This document shows, piece by piece, positions 7,889 through 41,196 of a DNA stretch of 64,000 nucleotides. Positions within the stretch are counted from its first letter, which is position 1; the number at the start of each line of letters is the position of its first letter. Below the pieces are notes generated by a model, which worked only from the letters and a program-made list of their open reading frames with translations, did not search any database and was not told where the DNA came from. Source of the DNA: Mycobacterium sp. 4858 (GTDB taxonomy: Bacteria; Actinomycetota; Actinomycetes; Mycobacteriales; Mycobacteriaceae); the NCBI RefSeq assembly GCF_900240975.1, contig NZ_LT968775.1:558001-622000 (forward strand). The letters are read 5' to 3'. The position numbers and the translations under genes were made by a program.

Positions 7889-8016
7889 AGACCGACCGTA
7901 TCCCCCGGTTCGCGTTGCGTGAAACAACAACCCGATTTTCACCGAACGTGCATCCATGGCGAGGTCGAGGCCGAATTTTCGTGCTGAGTGCACGCTCGCC
8001 CGCTACCTTCTCGGTT

Positions 8017-9117
8017 ATGAGTCGGTGGGTGGCGTCGATGTGTCTCGCCCTGGCGTTGGTGGGATGCGCGTCCGGGCATCCACCCGCGCCGCGGCCGATG
8101 CTGACGTATCTGGGCCAGTCGCAGGTTCCGTTCGACGCCACCTTCGACGGCACCGTCATCGGCGGGCTGTCGGCGCTCAGCTACGACCCGGGCCGCCAGC
8201 TGTATTACGTGATCAGTGACGATCGCTCCAAGAAGAATCCGGCCCGGTTCTACACGGTGCAGTTGTCCCTGTCGGACAGGGGAATTGACCACGTCACGTT
8301 CACCGGCACCCATCCGCTGCTCGACCCGTCCGGCCGGCCGTTCCCGCCGCTCAGGGCGGATACCACGCCGCCGATCGTTCCCCCCGACCCCGAAGGCATC
8401 GCGTTCGATCCCGCCCGGCAGCGGCTGTACTGGTCCTCCGAAGGTGAGCGGCTCACCGCCGGCCCGGTGTTGCTCGACCCGTGGATCCGGACCGCGGCGC
8501 TCGACGGTGCCTACCTGGGCCAGTTCACCCTGCCGGCCAATCTGGCGATGTCGGCGCAGCGCGTGGGCCCGCGCAGAGACAGGGCGCTGGAGGGCCTGGC
8601 GCTGACGCCCGACGGCCGATCGCTGTTCGCCGCGATGGAGGCCCCCGGCTACAACGACGGTCCGCTCAGCGGCGGCGGCCCCCGCATCCTCCCCCGGATC
8701 ACGAAGTTCGACGTCGCGCCCGGCGCGGCCACGGCCCAATCCGCGTCCCCGAGGGAGCCGCCGGCCCCGCCCGCCGATGTCAACGGTGTCTCCGATCTGG
8801 TCGCCCTGTCGGACACGACCTTCTTGGTGATCGAGCGATCGTCGGCCCTGCCGCCGACGGTGCGGATCTACCGCGCCGAAATCGGTGCGGCGACAGACGT
8901 TTTGACCACCCCGTCGATGGAGCACGCGGCCGTGACGCCCATGACTAAAACCCTGGCGGTCGATTTGTCGTCCACGCCGGGACTGTCACCGCTGGACAAC
9001 GTCGAGGGCATCACGCTGGGACCGAAGCTGCCCGACGGTCGCCAGTCGGTGGTGCTGGTCAGCGACAACAACTTCTCGCCCCGCCAGGTCACCCAGTTCC
9101 TGTTGTTGGCGATGTGA
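8017..9117 (+). CDS. Esterase-like-activity-of-phytase family lipoprotein
   Basis: Exported lipoprotein of 366 residues. The signal sequence ends in a lipobox (ALVGCAS, Cys14 region). The mature chain matches the 'esterase-like activity of phytase' beta-propeller family: GGLSALSYDPGRQLYYVISDDRS at the start, DPEGIAFDP and EGLALTPDGRSLF repeats in the middle, and LDNVEGITLGPKLPDGR at the end. Enzymatic activity in this family is poorly established. The frame is open back to 7915, but ATG 8017 starts the signal peptide. Its 3' end overlaps the converging ABC gene by 29 bp. Confidence 0.8.
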   Translation: MSRWVASMCLALALVGCASGHPPAPRPMLTYLGQSQVPFDATFDGTVIGGLSALSYDPGRQLYYVISDDRSKKNPARFYTVQLSLSDRGIDHVTFTGTHPLLDPSGRPFPPLRADTTPPIVPPDPEGIAFDPARQRLYWSSEGERLTAGPVLLDPWIRTAALDGAYLGQFTLPANLAMSAQRVGPRRDRALEGLALTPDGRSLFAAMEAPGYNDGPLSGGGPRILPRITKFDVAPGAATAQSASPREPPAPPADVNGVSDLVALSDTTFLVIERSSALPPTVRIYRAEIGAATDVLTTPSMEHAAVTPMTKTLAVDLSSTPGLSPLDNVEGITLGPKLPDGRQSVVLVSDNNFSPRQVTQFLLLAM

Positions 9118-10870
9118 TGCGGGCCCGGCCGGGCTCGGGCCGCAGCCGGTAGAGGGTGAAGCCCGTCGCCGCCACGCCGAAGAGCACCAGCATGGTCATG
9201 TCGAACACCCACCAACCGCTGTAGTGGGTCCACGTCTGGGAGTCGGCGGCCAGCGCGTCGACCCTGCGCAGGTCGACCGTGGACGCCGACGCGGCGAAGC
9301 CCCATCGGGCGGGAACGAACCAGGAGATCTCCTGGAAGCCCCACTTGCTCACCAGCTGGACGAGGCTCCCGTTGAACAGCGCCGACGCCAGGATCACCGG
9401 CAACAGCAGCGGCAGGACCTCACGCAGCCGAGTGCCCAGCGCCGACAACGCGAGCCCGATCACCGCGGACACGATGGCCGTCACCGCCACGCTCACATAG
9501 AGCTCGAGCGTGGCGTCGTGCAGCAAGGCGGCGCCGCGCGTTGGACCGCCCTTCTCGGCGACGACGATGGCGAACACGACTGCCGTCAACAGGGCCGCGG
9601 CGACGCCGAACACCAGGATCTTGGCGGCCAGGTAGGCCGTCGTCGACATCCCGAGAGCCTGCTCGCGCCGGAAGACGTGCCGCTCGCCCACCACGGCCCG
9701 GATCGTCAGCGCGGTGCCGATGATCACCGCGGCGACGTTGAGGGCGGCCAGGAGCTCGATGGCTTCGTGCGGGTGGGCGGCGCCCGCCGGTGGCCGGGCC
9801 AAGCCCGAATCGCCCGGGATCAGCAGCGTCGCTCCCGCCAGCAGGAACGGCAGAATCGCCAAGAACACGAAGTAGAGCCGGTCGGCGAAGATCAGCCTGA
9901 CGTCGCGGCGGGCCAGCAGCCGGACCTGCCGCGCCATCGGGGGTTCGGCGGGCGGCGGCGACGGGGCGGCCACCTCGGGCGGCGCCGTCAACGCCGACGC
10001 CGATGGGCGGGCACGGAACGCACGGTGGGGTCCGCCGGGATCGGCGCCCGCCCGGGCGAGCACCGCGGACCAGTCGGCCGTGCCCATCGCGGCCTCGATC
10101 TGCGCGGGCGGCCCGAGGAATGCCGTCGTACCGGCCGAGGTGAGAACCAGCACCTGATCGCACAGGTCGAAGTCGGTCGACGACGTCCGCGATGACGCGG
10201 CCGCCACGACCACGCAGCCGATGTCGGCCTGGCGCCGCAGCATCGCCATCACGTGGCGCTGTTGTTCGGCGTCCAGGCCGGCGCTCGGCTCATCAACCAC
10301 GAGCAGCGTCGGCCGGGTGACGAGCTCGACCGCCAGCGCGGCGCACCGGCGCAGCTCGGGCGGTAGCTTGCCGATCCGGGTGGCCCGGTGCGGTGTCAGC
10401 TCGAGTTCCTCGAGAACCTGGCTGACCACGCGGTCTCGTTGCTCGGTCGAAACGTCCTGCGGCAGGCGCATTTCGGCGGCGTATCGCACGACCCGTTCGA
10501 CGGTCAGCTGCCGGTGCAGGCGGTCGTCGGGCGACACGATGCCGATGCGGCTGCGCATGGACTGCGGCTCGGCGTGCACGTCGTGGCCGTCGACGGTGAC
10601 GCGGCCGGAGCTGAGTTGCCTGGTGCCGGCGAGCAGTCCGAGCAGCGCGGAGTTGCGCGCGGCCGAGGGCCCGACGACCGCGGTGAACGTGCCCGGACGC
10701 GCCGTGAAGGAGATATCCGACAGCGTCTCGCGCCCGTCGACGGTGAGTCCGAGCCGGTACGCGGCGACTCCGACGGTGCGGGCGTCGGCCTTGAGCGGCA
10801 GGCGGTAGGTGGCGTTCGGCTCCGCCGGGCGAATCGAAGGACGCGCGACGCGCAGTTTCGAGGTGACCAT
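9089..10870 (-). CDS. ABC half-transporter with degenerate ATPase domain
   Basis: A 593-residue protein with an N-terminal ABC nucleotide-binding domain (about 30-250), a proline-rich linker (about 280-325) and a C-terminal ABC2-type membrane domain with about six helices. The layout recalls M. tuberculosis Rv1747 without its FHA part. The Walker A site reads GPSAARNS (67-74), with Arg and Asn where the family has Gly-Lys. The signature LSGGQ is replaced by LPPEL (169-173), the Q-loop glutamine is lost (VSPDD), and no switch histidine is visible. Walker B (LLVVDEPSAGLD) is intact. It follows the FHA gene by 8 nt, so the two are probably one operon. ATP hydrolysis is doubtful. Confidence 0.82.
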   Translation of the reverse strand: MVTSKLRVARPSIRPAEPNATYRLPLKADARTVGVAAYRLGLTVDGRETLSDISFTARPGTFTAVVGPSAARNSALLGLLAGTRQLSSGRVTVDGHDVHAEPQSMRSRIGIVSPDDRLHRQLTVERVVRYAAEMRLPQDVSTEQRDRVVSQVLEELELTPHRATRIGKLPPELRRCAALAVELVTRPTLLVVDEPSAGLDAEQQRHVMAMLRRQADIGCVVVAAASSRTSSTDFDLCDQVLVLTSAGTTAFLGPPAQIEAAMGTADWSAVLARAGADPGGPHRAFRARPSASALTAPPEVAAPSPPPAEPPMARQVRLLARRDVRLIFADRLYFVFLAILPFLLAGATLLIPGDSGLARPPAGAAHPHEAIELLAALNVAAVIIGTALTIRAVVGERHVFRREQALGMSTTAYLAAKILVFGVAAALLTAVVFAIVVAEKGGPTRGAALLHDATLELYVSVAVTAIVSAVIGLALSALGTRLREVLPLLLPVILASALFNGSLVQLVSKWGFQEISWFVPARWGFAASASTVDLRRVDALAADSQTWTHYSGWWVFDMTMLVLFGVAATGFTLYRLRPEPGRARITSPTTGTG

Positions 10871-10878
10871 CCGTTCGA

Positions 10879-11424
10879 TCAGCCCCGGACCGCCCGTGTC
10901 CTGAGCGGGCGGCGCGGGGTGCGGCTGAGCGGCACGACGGGCATCCGCTGCGTCTCGCGCTGTGTCGGGGCCCGCAGGGTGGGGCCGTGCGGGCGGGGCG
11001 GTGGCGGCGCGACCGGAAAAGGAGGCGGCGGGTGAGCCCCGGGCCGGGGCGCCGGGCGCTGAGCCGGGGCCGGCGGACCTGCGGGCTGCGCGATCTGGAA
11101 GACCAGCCGCGGGCCCCGCTGCGGATCACCGACACTGATCGCCTGGCCGTCGCGGATGTTCACCGTCGACGCCCGCGCGCCGTCGACGAAGATCCCGTGG
11201 TGGCTCAGGTCGATGGCCACCCACTGGGTGCCGGCGAACCGCAGCACCATCTCCGGCCCGGGCGGTGGCGGCGGCGAGCCCGGGTTACCGAGGCGCTCGA
11301 GGGCGATGTCGCAGCCCGGGCCGTAGCCGACGATCACGTCGCGCCCCGGGGCGAAGTCGAACCTCATGGGCCCGACCCACACGGTCAACGGGGAGGCCCT
11401 GAACGCGGAAGCCTCGGTCCGCAT
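10879..11424 (-). CDS. FHA-like domain protein, proline-rich tail
   Basis: A 181-residue cytoplasmic protein with one FHA-like domain (about 15-115) followed by a Pro/Arg-rich tail. FHA domains normally bind phosphothreonine. Here VIVGYGPGCDIAL has Tyr where the family has the GR arginine, the SxxH loop is replaced by a proline run, and LSHHGIFVDG lacks the SxNG asparagine. So phosphopeptide binding is doubtful. AAGGGGG lies just upstream of ATG 11424. The gene runs directly into the ABC gene, suggesting that together they represent a split Rv1747-like FHA-ABC transporter. Confidence 0.72.
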   Translation of the reverse strand: MRTEASAFRASPLTVWVGPMRFDFAPGRDVIVGYGPGCDIALERLGNPGSPPPPPGPEMVLRFAGTQWVAIDLSHHGIFVDGARASTVNIRDGQAISVGDPQRGPRLVFQIAQPAGPPAPAQRPAPRPGAHPPPPFPVAPPPPRPHGPTLRAPTQRETQRMPVVPLSRTPRRPLRTRAVRG

Positions 11425-11502
11425 CGCCCGCCCCCTTTCGTCACCGGTCAGCTCGACTTAGTGTCTACCCGCTGGCCGCGGCCTCTTCACCGGTTTAAGC
11501 CC

Positions 11503-11976
11503 TCACAGCGTGCTACGCCGCCCGGCCGGCGACGCATTGTCGAGGAGCCGGCGCAATACCTGGACCGCGTCCGTGAGCACCCGGCGGTCGCCCGGTTCGA
11601 GGAGCGCGAGTTGGGGTTCGATCGCGGCGGCGCGGTCGGCGCGGACCGCGTTGAGCATGCGTTTGCCCTGAGGGGTGATGCGGATCCGGACGGCGCGCGC
11701 ATCCCCCGGGTCGATGGTCCGGGTGACCAGGCCGGCCTCCTCGAGCCGGCGCACCTGGGTGGTCATGGTCGGTTGGGAGCAGTGGTCGACGGTCGCGAGA
11801 TCACCGATGCGGGCTTCCCCGTGAGCTTCGATCGTGGCGAGCAGCCTGGCCTGCGCCGCGGGCAAGGGCATCTGGATGCGCTGGGTGGCCAGCCGGTTGA
11901 GCCGCGCCACCACGGCGAGCAGATCCGCTCCCAGCTGCTGGGCCTCGACGTGTGCGGTATCGACAACTCTGTCCAT
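11503..11976 (-). CDS. MarR-family transcriptional regulator
   Basis: A 157-residue winged-helix regulator. The DNA-binding region reads ARIGDLATVDHCSQPTMTTQVRRLEEAGLV, followed by the wing DARAVRIRITPQGK. The open frame extends to 12255, but ATG 11976 gives the standard MarR N-terminus. It is divergent from the ECF importer genes, as in M. tuberculosis (Rv2327 next to Rv2326c), so it is likely to control itself and perhaps that transporter. The ligand is unknown. Confidence 0.88.
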   Translation of the reverse strand: MDRVVDTAHVEAQQLGADLLAVVARLNRLATQRIQMPLPAAQARLLATIEAHGEARIGDLATVDHCSQPTMTTQVRRLEEAGLVTRTIDPGDARAVRIRITPQGKRMLNAVRADRAAAIEPQLALLEPGDRRVLTDAVQVLRRLLDNASPAGRRSTL

Positions 11977-11991
11977 GTGCCCATCGTTCCA

Positions 11992-12002
11992 TAGCTTTGC
12001 TA
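11992..12002. promoter_or_regulatory. Possible MarR operator (TAGC-TTT-GCTA dyad)
   Basis: An 11 bp inverted repeat TAGCTTTGCTA lies 15 nt upstream of the MarR start, in the 115 bp space shared with the diverging ECF transporter gene. Size and place fit an autoregulatory operator. No second copy was found, so this is a weak call. Confidence 0.35.
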
Positions 12003-12091
12003 ACTGAGACGAGAGGCGCCGGCCCGAACTGGGCCGGAAGTCACGAAGTGTATGACGCGACTCGGCGCGGCGGGCTGGCACAATCAGTGAA

Positions 12092-13537
12092 GTGAATGCC
12101 CGTCGCCCCGTCCGTTCGCACCATCGGGGTGGGCCGTTACGACCGGCCGAATTGGCACAGGCCTCCGTGATGGGGGCGCTGTGCGCGGTGATCTCGATCG
12201 TCGCCGGGGTGATCCCGTTCGCGCAGGGTTTGGCGCTGTTGGGCACCGTGCCCATGGGGCTGCTGACCTACCGTTACCGCCTCCGGGTGCTCATCGCCGC
12301 GACGTTTGCTGCCGGAACTCTGGCCTTCCTCATCTCTGGATTGGGCAGTTTCCTGACCGTCATCAACTGCGCCTACATCGGCGGATTGACCGGAATCGTC
12401 AAACGCCGGGGCAGGGGCACACCGACCGTGACGTTCGCGTCCCTGATCGCCGGCTTCTTCGTCGCCGTCGCCACGGTCGGCATGCTGGCGGTGCTGAATC
12501 GGTTGCGCCATCTGATCTTCCAGGTGATGACCGCCAACGTGGACGGTGTCGTGGCGTTCCTCGACCGGGTGAATCTCGGGTGGCTCGGCGTCGACGTCAA
12601 GCGGGTCTTCGAATTCGGGTTGCAGTATTGGCCGTGGCTGATGCTCGGCTATGTCACCTACGGCGTCGTGGTGTCGTCGTTGATCGGTTGGTGGGCGCTG
12701 TCCCGCCTCCTGGATCGGATGGGCAACGTTCCGGATGTGCACAAACTGGACGCTCCGGACGAGCCGCCCGACGCCCCGATCGGGCCCGTGCCGGTGCGGC
12801 TCGACAAGGTGCGGTTCCGCTACCCGCACGCCCAGCAGGACGCGTTGCGTGAGCTCAGCATGGAACTGCAAGTCGGAGAACACGTTGCCGTCATCGGCGC
12901 CAACGGGTCCGGCAAGACCACGTTGACGCTGATCCTGGCGGGCCGGCCCCCGACATCGGGCACCGTGCGGCGCCCCGGAGCGGTGGGGTTGGGCATGGTG
13001 GGCGGCACGGCGCTTGTCCTGCAGCACCCGAAGAGCCAGGTGTTGGGCACCCGGGTGGCCGATGATGTCGTCTGGGGGCTGCCGCCGGGCACCGCGGTCG
13101 ACGTCGACCATTTGTTGCGCGAAGTAGGGCTCGAGGGTTTCGGCGAACGGGACACCGGAAGCCTGTCCGGCGGGGAGTTGCAGCGCCTCGCCCTCGCCGC
13201 GGCGCTGGCCCGAGAACCGGCGCTGCTGATCGCCGACGAATTCACCAGCATGATCGACCGAGAGGGCCGTAACGTCTTGTTGAACGTGCTGTCGGGCCTT
13301 CCCCAACGGCATCGAACCGCCCTGGTGCACATCACGCATTTCGACAACGAGGCCGCGTCGGCGGACCGGACGATCAACCTCAGCGATTCCCCGGACAACA
13401 CCGTTGTGGTTGGGGCTCGAACAAGCCGGTGCTCGAAATCATCGGCGTCGGACACGAATACAACAGCGGGACACCGTGGGCGAAGACCGCGCTGCGCGAC
13501 ATCAACCTCGTCGTGGAGCAGGGTGACGGGATCTTGA
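12092..13537 (+). CDS. ECF-type importer: membrane S-like domain fused to first ATPase (5' part of frameshifted gene)
   Basis: The N-terminal 190 residues form about six membrane helices (S-component-like). From about residue 225 an energy-coupling ATPase domain follows: Walker [10 protein letters not shown], signature LSGGELQ, Walker B ALLIADEF. After the '[12 protein letters not shown]' region (about 13410) the reading frame turns into low-quality Arg/Ser sequence and overlaps the next ATPase gene by 109 bp. The M. tuberculosis counterpart (Rv2326c) is a single 697-residue protein with both ATPase domains. The two frames here differ by one base, so this is probably one gene broken by a 1-base deletion near the GGGG at 13412-13415, or a sequencing error. 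A vitamin or metal substrate is likely but not identifiable. Confidence 0.8.
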
Positions 13538-14100
13538 TTCACGGCGGCAACGGCTCGGGCAAGTCGACGCTGGCGTGGATCATGGCCGGGCTGACCGTTC
13601 CCACCAACGGCGCCTGCTTGATCGACGGCGAGCCCATCCGGGAGCACGTCGGCGCGGTGGCGCTGTCATTTCAGACGGCGCGGCTGCAATTGATGCGCAG
13701 TCACGTCGGCCTGGAACTTGCCTCCGTGGCGGGCTTTTCCGACGATGACGAAGACCGGGTGGTCGCCGCCCTTGCCGCGGTCGGGCTGGAACCCGCGATG
13801 GGCAAGCGGCGCATCGATCAGCTCAGCGGCGGCCAGATGCGGCGGGTGGTCCTGGCCGGCCTGCTGGCGTGTTCGCCGCGCGTGCTGATCCTCGACGAGC
13901 CGCTGGCCGGGTTGGACGTCGCCAGCCAGCGGGGCCTGCTGCGCGTGCTGGCGGATCTGCGCCGTCACCGGGGCCTGACCGTAGTTGTCATTTCCCACGA
14001 CTTCGTCGGTTTGGAAGCCGTGTGCACGCGGACCGTGCATCTGCAGAAGGGCGCGCTGCAAGCGGTGTCGGCCACCGCCGCGGCCGGGGGTGTGGCGTGA
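13429..14100 (+). CDS. ECF-type importer second ATPase (3' part of the frameshifted gene)
   Basis: A 223-residue ABC ATPase with intact Walker A (GGNGSGKST), signature (LSGGQMRR) and Walker B ([12 protein letters not shown]). The GTG at 13429 is the first usable start but has no Shine-Dalgarno sequence, and it lies inside the previous gene. It is therefore better read as the second half of one EcfA1A2 polypeptide. The end couples to the EcfT gene by a GTGA overlap. If translated separately it could still act as an EcfA subunit. Confidence 0.8.
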
Positions 14101-14948
14101 CCGTAACCTCCGCCTCGGCCCCCAGGAGGAGTCGGCGCACCTACCGGCCGGTGGTGCTATTGGTTCCGGTGCCGGGCAGGTCCCCCATCCACAACCTGTG
14201 GGCCGGAACCAAACTCCTGGTGGTCTTCGGTGTTTCGGTGTTGCTCACCCTGTTTCCGGGCTGGGTGACCATCGGGTCGGTGGCGGCGCTGGTGCTGGCG
14301 GCGGTCTGGATCGCTCACATCCCGCGGGGGGCGCTTCCGTCGGTTCCGCGGTGGCTGTGGATCCTCCTCACACTGGGTTTCGTGACCGCCGCGCTGGCCG
14401 GTGGTAGTCCGATGCTGACCATCAACGGGGCCCACATCTGGCTCGGCGGGGCGTTGAACTTCCTGCGGATCTCCACGTTATCGGTGGTTCTGCTCGGGCT
14501 GGGGGCGATGGTGTCCTGGACCACCAACGTCGCCGAAATCGCGCCCGCCCTGGCGATTTTGGGCCGCCCGTTCAAGTTGTTGCGGATTCCGGTGGACGAG
14601 TGGGCGGTGGCCCTGGCCCTGGCGCTGCGTGCCTTCCCGTTGCTGATCGAGGAATTCCAGGTGCTCTACGCCGCCCGTCGACTGCGGCCCAACCACATGC
14701 CGACGAGTCGCAAGGCGCGGGTCAGGCAGACGGCGGGTAACTCGATCGATCTGGTCGCCGCCGCCATCGTGGTGACCCTGCGCCGGGCCGACGAGATGGG
14801 CGATGCGATCACCGCTCGCGGCGGCATCGGCCAGCTCTCCGCCGATCCGGCACGGCCGAAACTGGGGGACTGGGTCACGCTCGGCGTCACCGTCGCGGTC
14901 AGCGGTGCTGCGGTGGCGATCGAGACGATATTCCACCTGACGGCCTAG
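14097..14948 (+). CDS. ECF transporter transmembrane component (EcfT)
   Basis: A 283-residue membrane protein of the CbiQ/EcfT family, which links the substrate-binding S protein to the two ATPases. It has a hydrophobic N-terminal half ([21 protein letters not shown] and further helices) and the cytoplasmic coupling region with the RRLRPNH and [14 protein letters not shown] segments, close to the AR-motifs of EcfT. Start GTG 14097 overlaps the preceding TGA by 4 nt. It corresponds to M. tuberculosis Rv2325c. Confidence 0.85.
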
Positions 14949-34330: not shown

Positions 34331-34615
34331 GTTGCGTTTCCTTTATGGCTAGCTACAGGTCATTTACGACCTAGTCGGATCGGCGTTGCTGGACCTTTCG
34401 GTCGCAGCTGGAACGGTGCCGCATTCGGCCTTCTCGCGTTCCCGCTCACTGTGCGTGCTGGGTCGGGTGAGCATGAAGAATGAATTTGTCGAAGGCACAC
34501 GTACTGGTATTCAACCCGTCCCCTTCCAGGCCTCGACGCCCTAAATTGCAGCTTCAGTCTCGATGCCCGTCCATACGCTCGCTAGAGCCCGAAGTCCCTA
34601 GCGGCCAGGGAACCC

Positions 34616-34852
34616 CGTCCGCACACCACGGCATCGCTCGCGATCAGTGCGGGCGCTAATGTCGAGGTCGTGCAGAGGCTACGAGGACACGCCACTGCGC
34701 TCATGACCTTGGACTGTTATGGCCACCTGCTCAGCGACGACCTCGCGGGCGTGGCAGATGCCCTTGGACAGGCCATTGAAGGCGCTGCGGTGTCACTGCG
34801 GTATTCGGAAGCTGATCCAGTTAGAGTCGAGAACATATCCGCAGCTAGTTAG
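34616..34852 (+). pseudogene. Tyrosine-integrase C-terminal remnant
   Basis: The frame encodes HTTASLAISAGANVEVV, then GHATALMTLDCYGHLL and a DDLAGVADAL tail. This matches the last part of a phage-type integrase: the second catalytic histidine (GHA) and nucleophilic tyrosine (CYGHL) are present, but the catalytic domain upstream is missing or scrambled. The stop at 34852 is 4 nt before the tRNA. It records a previous integration event near this tRNA, distinct from the intact element to the right. Confidence 0.72.
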
Positions 34853-34856
34853 CATA

Positions 34857-34930
34857 GGGGCGGTAGCTCAGTTGGTTAGAGCCGCGGACTCATAATCCGT
34901 TGGTCGCGGGTTCGAGCCCCGCCCGCCCCA
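34857..34930 (+). tRNA. tRNA-Met (CAU anticodon)
   Basis: Cloverleaf of 74 nt: acceptor GGGGCGG pairs with CCGCCCC, anticodon loop CTCATAA (anticodon CAT), T-arm GCGGG-TTCGAGC-CCCGC, discriminator A. CCA is not encoded. It could be elongator tRNA-Met or a CAU-type tRNA-Ile (lysidine-modified). Its 3' half is the integration target of the neighbouring element, which supplies the present 3' half. Confidence 0.88.
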
Positions 34931-34933
34931 CCG
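34888..34933 (+). repeat. attL: 46 bp direct repeat in tRNA 3' half
   Basis: A 46 bp sequence from the anticodon loop to three bases past the tRNA end. It recurs exactly at 41151-41196. The bases before the two copies differ (g versus a) and the bases after them differ, so the repeat limits are clear. This is the classic attachment-core arrangement left by a tyrosine recombinase using a tRNA. Confidence 0.9.
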
Positions 34934-35004
34934 ATAGTTGCTGCAGCTAGAGCGCCTGTTGTGACCTCTGTGGGCGGTCGGCGGGCCTCCGACTTGACCC
35001 AAAT

Positions 35005-35023
35005 TTGCGCAAGTCTTACGCAA
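35005..35023 (+). repeat. Left arm-type site pair (TTRCGCAA x2)
   Basis: TTGCGCAA (35005-35012) and TTACGCAA (35016-35023) are direct copies with an 11 bp period, 72 nt inside the attL core. The same pair occurs in the same orientation near the other end (40968-40986). This is what integrase arm-binding sites look like in tyrosine-recombinase attP regions. Confidence 0.55.
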
Positions 35024-35097
35024 ACTGATGGTGCAGCCGAGGTACAAACCGGCGTTGGCAAACCGTCATTGTCGGCGGTTCGGCGTACCGTGCAGCC

Positions 35098-36213
35098 GTG
35101 GATACTGGTTTCAGCGCACAGCAGCTCTACTCGGCGTGCAGGTTAGAGGCGACGCATCACTTCTCAAGTGATGGAACCCATTGCACCGACCTTGCAGGAA
35201 CCGGATTTCTCGTGGAGTTTCCCACCGGCGACAATCGTTTGGCATTGGTCACCAATCGCCACATAGTTGATGCCGTCTTCTACAACGAGTTGGAAAATAA
35301 AGGGTCAACGATAAAGTCGATCAAGATGCAATGGTGGCAAAGTAAGGAATTGCGATGCGAGCATATCATTACCGATCCAAAGCCGCTATATCACGCGGAC
35401 TCTTTGCTTGACGTTGCAGTTATTCCGATTGCATCGACGCCGGAAGCACCATTAGAGGCTACCGCTGAAATTTATGGTGACATAGCGAAATTCATCGCTG
35501 AAAATAGTCCAACTGACATCACGCTAAACCATGCGATCAGTTGGGAAATGCTCTTGAAATGCGAAAAACTGTGGCCACAACTACAACCGGGAGAGTTCGT
35601 TGTCTTCCCTGGTTATCCTATCTGGTACGACCAGCTGCAGATAAGACCAGTGATGCGCTCCGGCTTGATCGCTAGTGATCCGCAAACCGACTACCGCTCG
35701 GGCAAAGGTGCGCCCGCAAAAGAGGATAGTAATCATCAGGTATTATTCGATGCCTTCTCAACAAGCGGCAACTCAGGAAGTCCTGTATACGTTGCCCAAC
35801 GCGGCATGGCTCCGATGGACTTCCTGATCCCTACGGGCGACGGCAAAACTGCCGCTCGGGCACAAATCGGATCTAAGAACTATCACCAGTCGTTCCTCAT
35901 TGGAATCAACGCGAGCCACTACAACGACACCGGAATACCGCGCCCTAACGAACATGCCGGACTGTCTCGAATGCATAAACTTTCAGTCATCATGGACATC
36001 TTGCGGGCCAACCAAGCTTCGCACGGTCCCGATTCCCGAAAGATGAGCATCGTCATACGCATTCCTGACAAATCGAAGCGCAAAGCCGCCACGGCAATCC
36101 GCGAACAATCAATTATGGCTCTACGCCAAGAGGGCAATTCTCTAAAGGCGATTGCTGCCGAAGTTGGCTGTTCTACCAGCACTGTGAGCCGGGTCATCAA
36201 GAAGCATTCTTAG
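35098..36213 (+). CDS. Trypsin-like serine protease fused to C-terminal helix-turn-helix
   Basis: A 371-residue protein. The first 300 residues form a trypsin-like peptidase: catalytic His55 (VTNRHIVD), Asp105 (LLDVAVIPI) and Ser226 (TSGNSGSPV) are all present, and no signal peptide is visible, so it is cytoplasmic. Residues about 337-368 form a compact helix-turn-helix (QEGNSLKAIAAEVGCSTSTV) like those of resolvases or sporulation-type regulators. A protease carrying its own DNA-binding domain is uncommon. GTG 35098 has no Shine-Dalgarno site; a TACCGT hexamer 6 nt before it suggests a leaderless transcript. First gene of the element, divergent from nothing and probably expressed alone. Confidence 0.83.
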   Translation: MDTGFSAQQLYSACRLEATHHFSSDGTHCTDLAGTGFLVEFPTGDNRLALVTNRHIVDAVFYNELENKGSTIKSIKMQWWQSKELRCEHIITDPKPLYHADSLLDVAVIPIASTPEAPLEATAEIYGDIAKFIAENSPTDITLNHAISWEMLLKCEKLWPQLQPGEFVVFPGYPIWYDQLQIRPVMRSGLIASDPQTDYRSGKGAPAKEDSNHQVLFDAFSTSGNSGSPVYVAQRGMAPMDFLIPTGDGKTAARAQIGSKNYHQSFLIGINASHYNDTGIPRPNEHAGLSRMHKLSVIMDILRANQASHGPDSRKMSIVIRIPDKSKRKAATAIREQSIMALRQEGNSLKAIAAEVGCSTSTVSRVIKKHS

Positions 36214-36921
36214 ATGGACGGCCCGCGCGGCAGCCTGGCATGCAGGTACGAATCGTCCATCTGCGCCGTCTAAACCGGTATCGATGAGGTTAGATATGCC
36301 GCCCCGGAATTTGAGTTATTTGCCTCTGACGACCCCGCCGTGGTTGCGGCGCTCGCGTCACTGCCACACTGGCCGCCATCGGCTGCCGCCAGGCCACGCA
36401 GATGCCCGTTCTGGCCGCGCAGCGTAGGTCCCTAGCAGCCGGTTTTCGACTTGGCTGCTGGAAGCCAGGTGCCAAAGGGCCGGATTGAACAGTAACGCGA
36501 TTCAAAGCCACAGATTGAACCATGCCGATTAGCCAGGCTGCCCCACGCAACCGGCGGGGGGCGGCGAGCCACTCAAGTTCACACGTGAACCTGTCTGCCA
36601 GTAGACAAGTTGGCCCGGCCCGGCATTCAGAGCTCTTGAACGGCGCCTATGATCTTGTCCGGTTGTGGCGACTTGGCGCAATAATCTTGCGGGAACCCTT
36701 CAGGCGAACCGAACTCGCTCGCGGTATCGAACCGTTCGCGAAGCTGCGCTTCACCGATAGGCACAGGATCATTATCGGCACCTAGCGGGTATCCGGTGCA
36801 TCGATCACTTCGGGACATCTGGAATCTCGTAGTCGCCGGCGACCTTGACTACGGCACGTGGGGGAGCAGCCTGGCAAGTCAGCACCATTCAAAAAGTTCT
36901 AGCGCGTGGAGGTAAGTAGTC
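36214..36921. other. Regulatory gap between protease and integrase, two dyads
   Basis: About 700 bp without a gene I can support. It holds two adjacent inverted repeats: GTTCACACGTGAAC (36577-36590) and TGTCTGCCAGTAGACA (36592-36607). Near 36483-36530 GATTGAAC occurs twice and GATTCAA once, echoing the GATTCAA copies near attR. These may be operators for the helix-turn-helix protein or an integrase accessory-site cluster. GGAGGT precedes the integrase ATG at 36922. An excisionase gene could be hidden here but none was recognised. Confidence 0.45.
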
Positions 36922-38226
36922 ATGGCATACATTCGGGAGCTACCCAACGGGAAGTTTCGCATCCTCTGGCGCGAGAACGCCCAAGATGACTACGGTTCAC
37001 CGATCAAGGGTCAGTACCGCCAGCGCTCCGAAACAGTTGCTACGGCCAAAGAAGCCGAGCGCCGCAAGATCGACATAGAGCGTGAGATTGAATCCGGGCA
37101 CGACCCTTCCGCTAGACGCGACAAGGCCGTGACCCCGCTGGGAACGTATGCCGCCCGCTACTTCGATGCTGCTGCGCCAACCATGGGCGATGCGACCCTG
37201 GTCGGGTACCGCAAGCTCTACCATCGCCACATTGCCGATGCCTTCGGATCTAGACCCATCGGATCAATCCTGCCTAGCGACGTCTCAGCGTGGTTCTCTG
37301 ATCTGTTAGCGGGGGATTCCAACCGCTATGCCAACTCGCAAGATGATTCCGATGAGCGAGAACTAGCTAAACGAAGCCCCAAGACCGCCAAGCAAGCCCT
37401 TGGTGTCCTGCGGCGCATCTGTGCGGTCGCGGTTCTGGACAACGCCATCATGGCGAATCCCGCCTTGGTGAAGCTCACAACCTCGTCTAAGCGACGAGCG
37501 TCCAAGTTTCGCCATACTCCGCTTACAGGTAGCCAAATCATCGCCTTGGCCGATCACGTCGCAAATAGGGGTCTACCGGCCTACGGGCTGTTCGTCACTT
37601 TTGCCGGCTTCACCGGCTTGCGTGCCTCTGAGTTGGCGGGTCTGGAGATCCGCGATGTGGTCCTGACTGATTCGGGCGGGTCGGTGCGGGTTGAGCGGGC
37701 CAAAACCAAGCGCGGCGGCAAGTGGGCAACAGAACCGCTCAAAACGGATGAGTCGGCGCGAACGGTGCCGCTAGAGCACTGGCTAGCCCAAGACCTACGG
37801 GGTTACCTTGCCAACCACCCGCGAGCAGATGAACCGACAGCGCCGTTGTTCCCCGGCCGGTTGGATCTAGCCGCCGCGAAAGCGCAGGGGAGAAACGTCA
37901 AGGTTTCGGGGGAGCGGTTCGATTGGTCTCGACCGGTTGACCCATCGAATTTCTACAAACGATTCATGCAACCTGGCGAGGCCGCGCTGGGTCTGCCAGC
38001 GGCACGGTTTCATGACTTGCGGCATAGCTTCGCGGTCAATCTGCTCTCGGCCAATCCAGCCGTTGACTTCAAGCGGGTGTCAAAGTGGCTAGGGCACAGC
38101 AGCTTCACGCTGACGTTGGACGTTTACGGCGACTACATCAATGACGACGTTTCCCAGCCCGCAGGTCTGGCGAGGCCTGTGGCAGTGCAATCGAATGTAG
38201 TGCCGTTGAACAGGCGCAACGCATGA
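36922..38226 (+). CDS. Tyrosine recombinase / integrase of the element
   Basis: A 434-residue phage-type integrase. N-terminal AP2-like arm-binding part (MAYIRELPNGKFRILWRE), SAM-like core-binding domain, then the catalytic domain with complete residues: Arg234 (GLRASEL), Lys in the beta-hairpin (AKTKRGGK), His364-x-x-Arg367 (HDLRHSF), His392 (LGHSS) and nucleophile Tyr402 (LDVYGDY). It should integrate and excise the element at the tRNA repeats. The stop overlaps the ATG of the UDG-like gene (ATGA), so the two are translationally coupled. Confidence 0.93.
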   Translation: MAYIRELPNGKFRILWRENAQDDYGSPIKGQYRQRSETVATAKEAERRKIDIEREIESGHDPSARRDKAVTPLGTYAARYFDAAAPTMGDATLVGYRKLYHRHIADAFGSRPIGSILPSDVSAWFSDLLAGDSNRYANSQDDSDERELAKRSPKTAKQALGVLRRICAVAVLDNAIMANPALVKLTTSSKRRASKFRHTPLTGSQIIALADHVANRGLPAYGLFVTFAGFTGLRASELAGLEIRDVVLTDSGGSVRVERAKTKRGGKWATEPLKTDESARTVPLEHWLAQDLRGYLANHPRADEPTAPLFPGRLDLAAAKAQGRNVKVSGERFDWSRPVDPSNFYKRFMQPGEAALGLPAARFHDLRHSFAVNLLSANPAVDFKRVSKWLGHSSFTLTLDVYGDYINDDVSQPAGLARPVAVQSNVVPLNRRNA

Positions 38227-38828
38227 CCGGCATGAACAGACACCAGCGCCGCCGAGACCTTGCCATAACGATTGAGCAGTGCAGCAAGTGCGATGGATTG
38301 AACGAACCGGGTAAGACAGAAGCCGCACCGGGCTTCGGCTCTATTCGTTCGCCGGTCGTGATTGTGGGTCAAAGCCTCTGCGAAAAGTGCATGGACACAA
38401 AAGTTCCGTTCACCGGCGGCAGTGGCCGTCTTATCGACGCGAGCCTACAAATTGCCGGATTGTACAAGCCCGACATTTTTATCACCAACGTCGTTCACTG
38501 TCACCCGCCGCCCGAGGCAAAAAAATCGCACCCCGAATGGATCGAGAATTGTAAGGATTACTTGTTTGAAGAGCTAGAGATTGTCAGGCCAAAGCTAGTG
38601 ATCGGGTTAGGTGGAGACGCGGAAAATACCATGTTGAAGGAGTATGGCGATGTAGAGAAGCTGCCGTGGCAGCCGTTTACCGCTCCCAAAACTAAAGCGC
38701 CGAACAATCGGCACTATCTTTTTATGCCGCATCCATCATGGATCTTGAGGCAGCACGATGATTCTCTTGAGCAGCAGTACATTGCTGGTTTGGCTAGCGC
38801 GTTGCGGTGGGCTTTCGATGCCCGTTAG
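38223..38828 (+). CDS. Uracil-DNA-glycosylase-superfamily protein, iron-sulfur type
   Basis: A 201-residue protein of the UDG family 4/5 type. It has the N-terminal C20-x2-C23 pair, motif GQSLCEKCMDTKVPFTGGSG in place of the usual GExPGxxED, the FITNVVHCHPP strand with C93, C110, and a MPHPSWILR motif (His170) near the end. C20, C23, C93 and C110 probably bind a [4Fe-4S] cluster; C53 and C56 are an extra pair. The KRRIH loop of mycobacterial UdgX is absent. Family enzymes remove uracil or damaged bases; here it may recognise foreign or modified DNA. Starts inside the integrase stop. Confidence 0.75.
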   Translation: MTGMNRHQRRRDLAITIEQCSKCDGLNEPGKTEAAPGFGSIRSPVVIVGQSLCEKCMDTKVPFTGGSGRLIDASLQIAGLYKPDIFITNVVHCHPPPEAKKSHPEWIENCKDYLFEELEIVRPKLVIGLGGDAENTMLKEYGDVEKLPWQPFTAPKTKAPNNRHYLFMPHPSWILRQHDDSLEQQYIAGLASALRWAFDAR

Positions 38829-38832
38829 TAGC

Positions 38833-38925
38833 GATGTTTCACAGCCAGCAAGCCTAGCGCGACCTCTGGGGGGCGCACCAACCGTCAATAACGCGGTCTC
38901 AATGGGTGGGCGGTCAAGCCAATGA
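38833..38925 (+). pseudogene. Leftover tail of a second integrase
   Basis: Read in frame, this stretch gives DVSQPASLARPL then GGAPTVNNAVSMGG and a stop. It aligns with the last residues of the intact integrase (DVSQPAGLARPV, ending in NVVPLNRRNA) at about three of four bases over 35 nt, then diverges. The stop TGA overlaps the ATG of the next gene, exactly as the intact integrase stop overlaps the UDG start. It therefore looks like the remaining 3' end of a related integrase gene. Confidence 0.6.
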
Positions 38926-39527
38926 TTTCCTATGCCGCTGATCAAGTTGCACAGCAGTTATCAATAGTAAGTCAATTGTTAATCGCTCTAGCTGGCGGCC
39001 TGGTTGGCGGCGTCGCCACCGTTGTGGGCCAGTTCCTCATTAGCCGAACAAACAGGAATATTTCCCGCGCCACTCAAGCAAGTGCCCTCCGCGTCGACCG
39101 ACACAAAGCAATCAACGATTTCATCGAAGTTGTGCAGCGTGCTCGCACTCTGACTTCAAAGATTCCTATCCTTGGACTAGTGGAAGACGCTACTGCCATA
39201 ACCGAAGAAGCGCACGCATTGCTTGCAGAAATGTGGTTTCGCCGTGGTTGTTTGGAGGTAATATGCCGGCCGGTATTGTATGATGCCGCTGCGGAATACG
39301 CGAAAGTGGTGGAGGAAGATATCGTCGAGCGGGTTGTTAGTGGTCTCACATCTGACGATGAAATCAGGGTGAAATTCAAGTCGACAGCTGTTCTGGGAGC
39401 GGATGGCAAGCCTGAATTAAAGATTGAGATTGAGCGTGATCCGAAGCGCATTGCGTATGAGGCGGCTGAACGAAAATTTTTCCGTGCGGCTCGCAGAGAA
39501 CTCTATTCGCCCGAAATCTCGGATTAG
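38922..39527 (+). CDS. Membrane-anchored helical protein, element cargo, unknown
   Basis: A 201-residue protein with one N-terminal membrane helix (about 14-40, SQLLIALAGGLVGGVATVVG) and a long cytoplasmic helical part (about 45-200) rich in charged residues. A short N-terminus before the helix suggests it anchors the soluble part to the inner membrane. ATG 38922 overlaps the stop of the leftover integrase tail. Codon use and low GC differ from the backbone. It converges with the ApeA/HEPN-like gene, the stops being 2 bp apart. I do not recognise a family; membrane-attached effectors are common in phage defence, but that is only a suggestion. Confidence 0.7.
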   Translation: MISYAADQVAQQLSIVSQLLIALAGGLVGGVATVVGQFLISRTNRNISRATQASALRVDRHKAINDFIEVVQRARTLTSKIPILGLVEDATAITEEAHALLAEMWFRRGCLEVICRPVLYDAAAEYAKVVEEDIVERVVSGLTSDDEIRVKFKSTAVLGADGKPELKIEIERDPKRIAYEAAERKFFRAARRELYSPEISD

Positions 39528-39528
39528 C

Positions 39529-40875
39529 CTATAGTTGGCCCCGCGCCACTATTTTTCTGACTTCAACGCCAATGTTATGATTGCGGTGACTATTGCAGAC
39601 TATATGAGTCATTTTCTTGTGACGCGCGATGCGGTTGAGTAGTGCTGACTGGAGTAGAATCTCTGCTGAGCGTGTGACGGTGTAAACATCTTCAGCATCG
39701 TACGAGAAAACCGGTTCGTGCTTGATACGGTTGTAGGTATCGCGGAAGATCTTTGACCAGACTTTAATATCGCCGACGAACTCCGTGAAAGCCGGTCCTA
39801 CGAATTTGGCCAAAACCTCTGTAAGCGTGCCGTTAGTGCGGTCTGCCCAAGCCGCTCCGCTTCGGCGGTGAATCTCAGACCAATAGTCGATGGCGGCAGC
39901 AATTTCCATGCATCTTGTTTCGGCTGCCAAACCAGTACCGAAGCGATATATTTTACTGATCGGACCTGTGGCGCGCCCATATTTGTGGGTTAGCTCGATC
40001 CATCCATCTACCCCTCTGATACCACCAATTTGGGGAAGGTTAAAAACTGGAAACTCATTCATGGATTCAGGTGCTGCGCTGCCTGGCGGTACTTTCATTA
40101 TCCGGCCAATCCAGAGTTCAGGCGACCTGGCGCGCGGGTCTTCTTGTTTGACCTCAATATCGGCGGTGCCGACGTCGGCAACGACAAAGCCTTGGTATGC
40201 CATATTAATTAAATCTTGCACTGCAAGTATTGGTTCTAGGTGGTCCCACCAGTCTTTAGGCCTAGCGCTCTCGGTGATGACTGCCAGCGGATTTTTGAGC
40301 AGTCGTACGTCATCCGGTCCTGTCATCGACCAATGTGATGAGAATGACAATTTAATACTGCGCCGTACGGGAGCCGATATGGCTTTTGCGCGGCGGAGCT
40401 TAGCATCCACAGATTGTAAGCGACCCAATTCGTCCTTTTCGGCCTTTGTAGCCACACCTCCGATCCCAGACCAAAACATCACTTTCGGGAAAGTTACCAG
40501 CATCCTGGTCAGTTTGTCACTCGCGACATTTCGTAGATTTACACCGCATAGAACGGAGCTCAGTCGATACGCGGCAGATGACGCTCTAACGCCACCGATA
40601 ATGTTGTTGCTGCTCAACCCTGCAACGTCATAGAACACCGCGCCTGCTGGTTTGGTAGATCCGTATATTGCCCTCGGGATTTCTCGGGTTGCCGTGGATG
40701 ATGCGTACAGACTGCGTACCAATTCAAGGCTTGTCAGTGTTTCGATGTGCCAAAGGCCGTCATCTTTTAGCTCAACATGCCCGTTGGCGGCTTCTGCAAA
40801 TTTCAATATATCGTCTATTTTTGTCCAGAAATGGCCGGTAGTGCCATCCATCAACTCTTGCAACTCGTCAGCCAT
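39529..40875 (-). CDS. ApeA-like N-terminal / HEPN-like C-terminal protein
   Basis: A 448-residue protein. Residues about 20-330 have the beta-rich pattern of ApeA N-terminal domains, with a LAVITESARPKDWWDHLEPI segment leading into a helix, as seen in that group. The C-terminal helical part contains FRDTYNRIKHEP (about 377-388) with R378, N382 and H386, similar to HEPN RNase motifs although the R-to-H spacing (seven residues) is longer than the usual four to six. ApeA proteins are HEPN anti-phage RNases. Low GC and element location agree. Family assignment is moderate; nuclease activity is inferred. Confidence 0.58.
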   Translation of the reverse strand: MADELQELMDGTTGHFWTKIDDILKFAEAANGHVELKDDGLWHIETLTSLELVRSLYASSTATREIPRAIYGSTKPAGAVFYDVAGLSSNNIIGGVRASSAAYRLSSVLCGVNLRNVASDKLTRMLVTFPKVMFWSGIGGVATKAEKDELGRLQSVDAKLRRAKAISAPVRRSIKLSFSSHWSMTGPDDVRLLKNPLAVITESARPKDWWDHLEPILAVQDLINMAYQGFVVADVGTADIEVKQEDPRARSPELWIGRIMKVPPGSAAPESMNEFPVFNLPQIGGIRGVDGWIELTHKYGRATGPISKIYRFGTGLAAETRCMEIAAAIDYWSEIHRRSGAAWADRTNGTLTEVLAKFVGPAFTEFVGDIKVWSKIFRDTYNRIKHEPVFSYDAEDVYTVTRSAEILLQSALLNRIARHKKMTHIVCNSHRNHNIGVEVRKIVARGQL

Positions 40876-40967
40876 TTCCGCATATTACAAGCCGGTTCAA
40901 CGGTCAGGAATGAACCACGCCGAATCAATCTGCGATCCGGCCAGCAAACCCGCCGACCGACGATCCG

Positions 40968-40986
40968 TTACGCAACTCTTACGCAA
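40968..40986 (+). repeat. Right arm-type site pair (TTACGCAA x2)
   Basis: TTACGCAA at 40968-40975 and 40979-40986, the same 11 bp period and orientation as the pair at 35005-35023, here 164 nt before the attR core. Having one pair on each side fits P and P' arm sites of the excised circle. Confidence 0.55.
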
Positions 40987-41017
40987 CCCCGCCTTGGTGG
41001 TTCTGACCTGCATCGAT

Positions 41018-41080
41018 GATTCAATCTGAACTTTTGAATGCCTTGATTCAATGAAACCTGTTGAAGGACAAGGGATTCAA
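41018..41080 (+). repeat. Three GATTCAA repeats near attR
   Basis: GATTCAA occurs at 41018, 41045 and 41074 with spacings of 27 and 29 bp, between the arm-type sites and the attR core. Another copy and two GATTGAAC variants lie upstream of the integrase gene (36483-36530). They may bind an excision factor or regulator encoded by the element. Confidence 0.4.
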
Positions 41081-41150
41081 CGCTTCAAGATGGATCGCCC
41101 AAACGCGCTGGTAGACCGCTAGATTCGGTCCAAAACCGCAGGTCGGCAGA

Positions 41151-41196
41151 ACTCATAATCCGTTGGTCGCGGGTTCGAGCCCCGCCCGCCCCACCG
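41151..41196 (+). repeat. attR: second copy of the 46 bp core
   Basis: Exact repeat of 34888-34933. It is not preceded by a tRNA 5' half, so it is the displaced 3' fragment of the original chromosomal tRNA gene. It sets the right end of the element. Confidence 0.9.

Follow-up and report, generated by a model that had tools for sequence, protein, structure and literature searches.

Candidate PICIs of Mycobacterium are described, in PMC10654092, as regions that contain an integrase together with a major capsid gene, and P4-like satellites carry antiviral hotspots (PMC9122126). AICEs, as described in PMC3218068, combine tRNA integration with a Prim-Pol and an FtsK/SpoIIIE transfer gene. For Brig1, the published descriptions (PMC11078745, PMC13160076) give the S. 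tokodaii UDG (4ZBY) as the best structural match and place the homologues mostly in Actinobacteria, many of them in putative defence islands. Against this background we considered a 6.3-kb integrative element in a tRNA-Met(CAU) gene of Mycobacterium sp. 4858; the stretch analysed, called the window, comprises 64,000 nucleotides (contig NZ_LT968775.1, positions 558,001 to 622,000). Our main reading, to which we assign a probability of roughly 70%, is that the element derives from a capsid-encoding mycobacterial satellite by an internal deletion of ~6.9 kb that spared the integrase and putative anti-phage cargo. With the candidate PICIs it shares a tRNA-targeting tyrosine integrase; capsid, primase and HGGxSTG genes are present in its relatives, and capsid and resolvase remnants in the window itself. 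It differs from them in that the capsid, primase, HGGxSTG and resolvase genes appear to have been lost, leaving integrase and cargo only. Variable positions carrying defence-like genes are common to P4-like satellites and the window, but the hosts differ and in the window the element core itself appears to be deleted. The integrase and core genes of P4-like satellites presumably also differ from those of the window element. Prim-Pol and tRNA integration link the window's larger relatives to AICEs, whereas these relatives carry a capsid gene, and neither an FtsK/SpoIIIE transfer protein nor Rep/Prim-Pol is found among the five element proteins.

The preliminary description of this DNA had proposed a 6.3-kb integrative element with an exact 46-bp direct repeat, paired arm-like sites at both ends, a complete tyrosine integrase and a GC content below that of the backbone, and each of these statements was borne out (Table 1). 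A whole-genome search located the 46-bp repeat at the two att positions only. Perfect copies of the arm consensus TTRCGCAAN3TTRCGCAA occur in the 64 kb only at the two listed sites, and the pattern had 0 occurrences in 100 shuffles; arm sites near both ends, with ≤2 mismatches, were also found in the elements of M. neoaurum, M. triplex, G225 and G113 (G numbers denote genomes in our sample). The GC content of the element is 54.5%, compared with 67.7% and 67.2% in the 20-kb left and right flanks. The proposed check for an unoccupied tRNA in relatives revealed a contiguous empty site in two genomes: in G103 the tRNA and 78 nt of right flank align at 94% over 155 nt, and in G191 a single 323-column alignment (76%) spans the left flank, the tRNA and 85 nt of right flank. 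Tyrosine recombinases are marked by R, HxxR, H and Y motifs, all of which were present on inspection of the integrase (INT) sequence. Direct att repeats, an integrase and an empty site in relatives thus identify a tRNA integrative element of the tyrosine-recombinase type.

Table 1. Features of the element and its left border (positions in the window).
Feature	Position	Strand	Basis
C-terminal piece of a second tyrosine integrase, left of tRNA	34586..34852	+	integrase HMM hit 34586-34849 and translation
tRNA-Met(CAU), integration target	34857..34932	+	ARAGORN
attL core, 46 bp, anticodon loop to just beyond tRNA 3′ end	34888..34933	+	exact repeat
Left arm-type site TTGCGCAAgtcTTACGCAA	35005..35023	+	motif search
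PROT, trypsin-like protease with C-terminal HTH	35098..36213	+	Pfam, PDC-S45, conservation in 116 rows
Small ORF, 63 aa, like sequence directly downstream of G224 and M. neoaurum capsid genes (tentative)	36627..36818	-	tblastx
Remnant of phage-type major capsid gene, last 14 codons and stop	36805..36849	-	tblastx, nucleotide shuffles
Putative deletion junction	36846..36851	.	5-nt overlap of the two remnant alignments, 36846-36850
Remnant of serine resolvase, last 22 codons (21-22) and stop	36851..36919	+	tblastn, nucleotide shuffles
INT, tyrosine integrase	36922..38226	+	PF00589 E 2e-15; complete ORF
UDG-like protein, Fe-S cysteine positions present; 4-nt overlap of its start with the INT stop	38223..38828	+	
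MEM, protein with N-terminal hydrophobic segment (by eye)	38922..39527	+	ORF
ApeA-like protein, ApeA_NTD1 and HEPN-like C-terminal region	39529..40875	-	PF18862, PF18739
Right arm-type site TTACGCAActcTTACGCAA	40968..40986	+	motif search
attR core, 46 bp	41151..41196	+	exact repeat

Elements with duplicated att sequences occupy the same tRNA in M. neoaurum (~12.2 kb), G225 (~12.1 kb) and G224 (~12.5 kb). All three encode an integrase, a primase-polymerase, an HGGxSTG-like protein, a resolvase and a phage major capsid protein, fitting the published candidate-PICI definition of integrase plus major capsid. Of this pair, the window element has the integrase, 72% identical to that of the M. neoaurum element, while the capsid gene is missing and its very end alone is recognisable. 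The capsid protein of the satellites matched phrog_3990 (1.4e-99 for M. neoaurum, 4e-105 for G224) and a major capsid protein in the PDB (1.7e-83), and is ~42% identical to mycobacteriophage capsids; the G225 copy is 60% identical to that of M. neoaurum. The HGGxSTG protein gave weak terminase-small matches.

It had also been stated that the window element has no replication, packaging or transfer genes. None is intact, but matches to a capsid end and a resolvase end in the 708-bp gap between the protease and integrase genes (36214-36921) had been overlooked. The capsid remnant is identical to the end of the G224 capsid at 11 of 15 positions, stop counted (79.5% over 44 nt at the nucleotide level). 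The resolvase remnant matched the C-termini of the G224 and M. neoaurum proteins at 66.7% (21 aa) and 75% (20 aa), respectively, in tblastn, and the G224 sequence at 73.7% over 57 nt. Both scores exceeded all 2000 shuffles, and the resolvase fragment lies directly upstream of INT, matching the order in the intact elements. Sequence comparison suggests that the joined remnants are likely a deletion scar, with ~6.9 kb missing relative to G224. Because a capsid end is joined to a resolvase end, the element is likely a phage satellite stripped of its particle and replication genes; with no intact packaging or replication gene left, it would be a deletion derivative. The earlier term phage satellite is therefore probably right for the ancestry, as same-tRNA relatives encode a capsid and the scar is kept, but not for a complete satellite at present.

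Both remnants are short (14 and 22 codons) and the capsid part depends on one parent-like element, that of G224, which counts against the scar reading and leaves the order of events an inferred one. In this reference element no arm site was found, and INT is only 53% identical to its integrase. The 63-aa ORF in the gap matched the sequence downstream of the capsid gene at 33% over 48 aa in G224 and 39% over 33 aa in M. neoaurum (E 0.002) in tblastx; matches to inner capsid sequence of G225 (E 0.085) and G010 (E 0.017) were weaker.

Related elements showed other deletions. In M. triplex, a different capsid-to-integrase deletion joins a capsid piece to the integrase from aa 212, an exact junction that hinges on the G224 capsid alignment; with the M. 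neoaurum capsid, the alignment extends into the integrase piece. A third deletion is seen in a metagenomic PROT relative (P0163), whose end consists of the C-terminal tail of the integrase. The capsid fragment of M. triplex, together with capsid and resolvase remnants lying in satellite order and orientation in the window's gap, argues against a defence island that was assembled directly by integrase capture of unrelated genes and had never been a satellite. We consider such an origin very improbable, although the cargo genes are distributed separately and, in G050 and an IMG/VR contig, the att copies at this tRNA enclose ApeA by itself.

In the satellite-derived reading, the genes for capsid, primase, HGGxSTG-like protein and resolvase would have gone with the deleted segment, whereas the integrase, its att and arm sites and the cargo at both ends would have stayed. 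INT may still catalyse excision and insertion of the element that lies between the att sites, and spread from cell to cell would rely on a helper phage, a related satellite or transduction. A minimal satellite that is still mobile, with replication and packaging supplied by a co-resident satellite or helper phage, would also suit the identity of the att repeats, the presence of both arm sites and the intact INT. Small satellites of reduced content are known (PICMIs, PMC10803314) and structural genes are often missing from satellites (PMC13376191). Against this stand the loss of every intact packaging or replication gene, the failure to identify a helper phage, and the lack of any tblastn match of INT at 1e-20 in 50,697 phage records, a result that favours the satellite-derived reading; we regard the still-mobile satellite as unlikely. 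A fossil element with drifting cargo seems to us highly improbable. Integrases are broken or missing in the related elements of M. triplex, G132 and G113, but in the window all five ORFs are intact and the att repeats are still identical. In addition, pairwise dN/dS was 0.05-0.18 in the computable pairs (UDG, INT to M. neoaurum, PROT and ApeA), values that average over both lineages and that for ApeA rest on a dS of 2.81; the INT-G224 pair, with saturated dS and a truncated start, was left out.

INT was also considered as a phage or prophage integrase. This assignment was rejected on the phage-record search above and on viral contigs, where no close relative was found.

The cargo identities proposed earlier hold by Pfam and PDC-S45: a trypsin-like protease with HTH, a member of the UDG superfamily and a protein with ApeA_NTD1. 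Counted at different E limits and with the own genome included, UDG was found in 40, PROT in 11, ApeA in 8 and MEM in 2 of 297 genomes. Each gene has its own distribution, and no genome but that of the window has all four, so the cargo is not a fixed unit. MEM has almost no relatives. A compact defence island with candidate anti-phage genes as cargo is a plausible interpretation of these sequences.

Conservation in 116 rows predicts a His55, Asp105, Ser226 triad for PROT. Its trypsin-like Pfam match (E 2e-4) is below the model cut-off, and the PADLOC model PDC-S45, a phage-defence candidate, matched residues 7-238 at 5e-20, placing PROT in that candidate family. No close relative was found in viral contigs and no PDB sequence matched at 0.1. 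Among 109 genomes of 28 genera, a set whose members of this genus repeat the earlier sample, PROT was found in one, its own.

The ApeA-like protein shares with ApeA proteins the ApeA_NTD1 domain (PF18862, 5e-18; 66.1 bits, cut-off 25.5) and a helical C-terminal region, where HEPN_Apea (PF18739) matched at 6e-05 just under the cut-off (24.0 versus 24.4 bits). The catalytic pair of HEPN proteins is R-x4-6-H. K385-H386 is present in 39/39 homologs, whereas arginine 378, separated from H386 by seven residues, is present in only 16/39; the HEPN arginine is thus not conserved and the motif is non-canonical, a point against the main reading. A fold search against the PDB gave no match at E ≤ 0.001, and a PDB sequence search gave none at 0.1.

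The UDG-like protein has the fold and the four Fe-S cysteines of family 4, with C20 and C23 in 65/66 aligned homologs (1 gap) and C93 and C110 in 66/66. The family-4 motif A, GE(G/A)PG, is replaced in the clade by GQSLCxxCM, in which G49-C53, C56 and M57 are invariant in 66/66. This motif A is unlike that of active family-4 enzymes, which likewise counts against the main reading. The protein scored 95 bits with NCBIfam UDG_fam4 (cut-off 125.3) and 75.7 bits with the UdgX model (cut-off 189.95). UdgX has a KRRIH loop with a crosslinking His109. In the alignment with the UdgX structure 6ajq, RRIH pairs with KKSH of the window protein, whose region is 8 residues shorter; 36/66 homologs have the His. 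As the 6ajq sequence is an E52Q mutant, Q50 of the window protein stands at the position of wild-type UdgX Glu52. By the published descriptions, Brig1 and Brig3 share with it the UDG superfamily, and 4ZBY is its best match too; GQSLCxxCM and two extra invariant cysteines set it apart.

Integrases do not always accompany UDG genes, an association we had considered and rejected. In 42 UDG regions (from 43 places, a partial copy in G034 being left out), an integrase lay within 200 bp in 7 (raw count) and at 2.6-5.4 kb in 3, and the fetched stretch had no HMM-detected integrase in 32. UDG relatives were also found on 7 mycobacterial plasmid records. These distributions, and an intact UDG gene in the window though primase and resolvase are gone, argue against a protein that works in recombination or replication of the satellite itself and not in defence, a role that we find possible but doubtful.

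If the satellite-derived reading is correct, the cargo may have been retained because it shields host or element from phages. PROT could be a protease with a regulatory role or one triggered by infection, the UDG-like protein could act by base excision on phage DNA, as Brig1 and Brig3 do, and the ApeA-like protein could be an abortive-infection effector. The locus would then capture a phage satellite turning into a small defence-like island while its scar can still be read, and the same tRNA would hold relatives reduced to a lesser and to a greater degree. For mycobacteria, whose defences matter for therapeutic phages, the UDG-like clade found beside satellite integrases, with its altered catalytic motif, would offer a testable lead towards base-directed phage defence. 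A wider proposal is speculative and, taken whole, rather unlikely: that separate core deletions have repeatedly pared capsid satellites down to minimal integrase-plus-cargo or cargo-only elements, which have two variable positions for cargo and are mobile phage defences, and that the UDG clade, marked by the invariant GQSLCxxCM and by conservation of six cysteines, represents a novel class of Fe-S anti-phage glycosylase that satellites took into the integrase operon on several occasions.

The integrase fragment left of the tRNA is probably a remnant of a different integration. Among the best 20 of 1516 phage records matching the tRNA, the top matches were phage tRNA genes, including 7 rows from Mycobacterium phages at 87-93%, some were known att sites of other phages, and no phage using tRNA-Met as its att site was found. 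Two-copy short-repeat families of the sizes seen in the window often arise by chance. A promoter scan gave 7 sites versus 4.1 expected, and a terminator scan 9 versus 6.3. At the same tRNA, a P450-like gene and a TetR gene are found in G080; cargo at tRNA-Met is thus not always defence-like, which counts against the main reading.

The protease-HTH gene PROT ends at 36213 and the integrase gene INT starts at 36922, and the 708 bp between them contain no intact known gene. This interval holds remnants resembling parts of larger elements at the same tRNA in M. neoaurum and in G224, a genome of our genus sample.

Remnants in the interval between PROT and INT (window coordinates)
Feature	Position	Strand	Description
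Capsid-end remnant	36849-36805	minus	reads VKVAGDYEIPDVPK-stop; the G224 capsid ends in VKAAGDYEVPEIPK-stop
63-aa ORF	downstream of the capsid remnant	minus	resembles post-capsid sequence of G224 and M. neoaurum
Resolvase-end remnant	36851-36919	plus	reads TARGGAAWQVSTIQKVLARGGK-stop; matches the resolvase C-terminus

Nucleotide alignments to the capsid and resolvase ends of G224 scored 43 and 39, respectively, when the best scores among 2000 dinucleotide shuffles each were 36 and 30. For the resolvase remnant, the match to G224 was 66.7% over 21 aa and that to M. neoaurum 75% over 20 aa; the remnant immediately precedes INT, the same order as in intact elements. The 63-aa ORF matched post-capsid sequence at 33% over 48 aa (G224) and 39% over 33 aa (M. 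neoaurum), and its identity is uncertain because part of it also resembles the inner capsid sequence of other elements (E = 0.02-0.09). The capsid-end and resolvase-end alignments share five bases (36846-36850), and the corresponding two points in G224 are 6,879 bp apart (6060-12938 of the fetched stretch L181), an interval that contains the primase, AAA_25 and HGGxSTG genes together with the greater part of both the capsid and the resolvase gene. The simplest reading of these alignments would be one deletion; the scar may also have formed in several steps.

The larger elements were found by querying 297 genus genomes with each element protein and with the tRNA, after which selected stretches were fetched. 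Duplicated att cores at tRNA-Met bounded large elements in M. neoaurum (12.2 kb), G225 (12.1 kb) and G224 (12.5 kb) and small ones in G132 (4.5 kb), G080 (3.5 kb), G113 (2.7 kb) and G050 (2.2 kb); in the M. triplex element the right copy has diverged. The 12-kb elements encode a protein of ~390-401 aa matching phrog_3990, a family of phage major head proteins, at 1.4e-99 for M. neoaurum and 4e-105 for G224; a related G019 locus gave 4.5e-83. The M. neoaurum protein matched solved major capsid proteins (1.7e-83) and, at ~42%, mycobacteriophage capsids, and it shares 60% identity with the G225 copy. The capsid gene is accompanied by Prim-Pol with AAA_25 or D5_N proteins, a serine resolvase, an integrase and an HGGxSTG-related gene, which exceeded the NCBIfam cut-off in G224, where its product has weak terminase-small matches, and did not reach it in M. 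neoaurum. PMC10654092 defines candidate PICIs, a class of phage satellite, by an integrase and a capsid gene within one region, and the 12-kb relatives share this combination with the mycobacterial candidates already known from that source. An additional integrase gene or fragment lies just past attR in G224 (L181 811-2142) and M. neoaurum (13770-14330 of stretch L003), which suggests tandem occupation of the tRNA.

The boundaries proposed in the preliminary description held up. A whole-genome search found the exact 46-bp direct repeat at only two places in the 5.6-Mb genome; it spans the anticodon loop to just beyond the 3′ end of tRNA-Met(CAU), and the lower GC content was reproduced (54.5% versus 67-68% in the 20 kb on each side). 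The paired arm-like sites, TTRCGCAAN3TTRCGCAA, lie ~72 bp inward of attL and 165 bp inward of attR, with no further exact copy in the 64 kb; 100 shuffled sequences gave no copy either. When 12 other elements or loci were scanned allowing ≤2 mismatches, arm sites were present near both ends in four (M. neoaurum, G225, M. triplex and G113), at a single end in G169, and were not found in seven (G224, G132, G080, G050, G010, G019 and G167). The anticipated unoccupied tRNA was found in G103 and G191, where the sequence that follows attR in the window directly joins the tRNA: in G103 the tRNA and 78 nt of right flank aligned at 94% over 155 nt, and in G191 a single alignment of 323 columns (76%) ran from the left flank through the tRNA into 85 nt of the right flank. 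Window positions 34586-34852, immediately left of the tRNA, encode a C-terminal piece of a different tyrosine integrase, possibly the trace of an older insertion at the same spot.

Other loci are presented, alongside the window element, as a putative reduction series. In M. triplex, PROT is still beside the tRNA, and a capsid piece (from residue 264 on in the G224 alignment) adjoins an integrase starting at residue 212 (8851/8852 of stretch L037). The exact junction is less sure because the M. neoaurum capsid alignment, which starts from residue 197 at 8608, runs into the integrase piece. This element also contains a DUF4062 gene (L037 7029-8165). P0163, a metagenomic protein and one case among 120 listed relatives of PROT out of 368 found, ends in NVVPMERRNA, compared with NVVPLNRRNA in the window integrase, and seems to be PROT fused to an integrase end. 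Besides PROT, the 2.7-kb G113 element retains both arm sites and a second gene, with no integrase detected; in this region (L142 8504-15779) the block is followed by a P-type ATPase gene and then by a partial conserved right flank near 15655. In G050 (10658-12854 of stretch L182), the ApeA-like gene (ApeA) is the sole gene flanked by the two att copies at tRNA-Met, and no integrase accompanies it. An IMG/VR contig (L186 2840-5102) likewise carries ApeA without an integrase, between tRNA-Met and a partial att copy.

PROT carries the trypsin-triad residues His55-Asp105-Ser226 and a C-terminal HTH, and matches PADLOC PDC-S45. After rows <260 aa were dropped from the alignment, the triad was conserved at H in 111/116 (5 gaps), D in 116/116 and S in 115/116. 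PROT is the tRNA-adjacent first gene, in the same direction, in the window, M. triplex, G113 and G169; in G224 this place is taken by a RelA/SpoT-domain gene (PDC-S33, L181 13318-14448). On the attR side, the gene antisense to the integrase is ApeA in the window; G224 and G225 encode X407 there, an unrelated 400-aa protein, and M. neoaurum encodes an ORC/CDC6-like ATPase. We infer two variable cargo positions in elements at tRNA-Met. A purely defensive reading of the cargo is weakened by the G080 element, which holds a P450-like gene and a TetR gene. ApeA has a clear N-terminal domain, and its match to the HEPN model falls marginally under the cut-off. Any RNase activity would be putative, since only 16/39 homologs retain the arginine expected in a HEPN pair, while K385-H386 is kept in 39/39; its AlphaFold model (pLDDT 88.4) had no PDB match at E ≤ 0.001. 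In two pairs of ApeA and PROT relatives (P0005/P0163 and P0006/P0222), the longest contigs are equal in length (3913 and 4373), a hint at linkage of the two genes in other compact elements. The membrane protein has one distant relative among the other 296 genomes at an E limit of 1e-5.

Pairwise dN/dS was 0.18 for the Fe-S UDG-like gene (UDG) versus G224, 0.13 for INT versus M. neoaurum, 0.10 and 0.15 for PROT versus G169 and G202, and 0.05 for ApeA versus G050, the last at a dS of 2.81, near saturation. These ratios show constraint averaged across both lineages and are not specific to the time since the deletion.

Satellites with antiviral hotspots are already known (PMC9122126). A limited search of the open literature found no joint report of a glycosylase and a mycobacterial phage satellite, and the related papers listed did not mention uracil-DNA glycosylase. 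We rate the UDG clade as the most novel part of the element. Four UDG loci (L106, L108, L112 and L114) share two upstream genes, named by eye as an SMC-like ATPase and a nuclease-like protein, and possibly represent a separate UDG-containing system.
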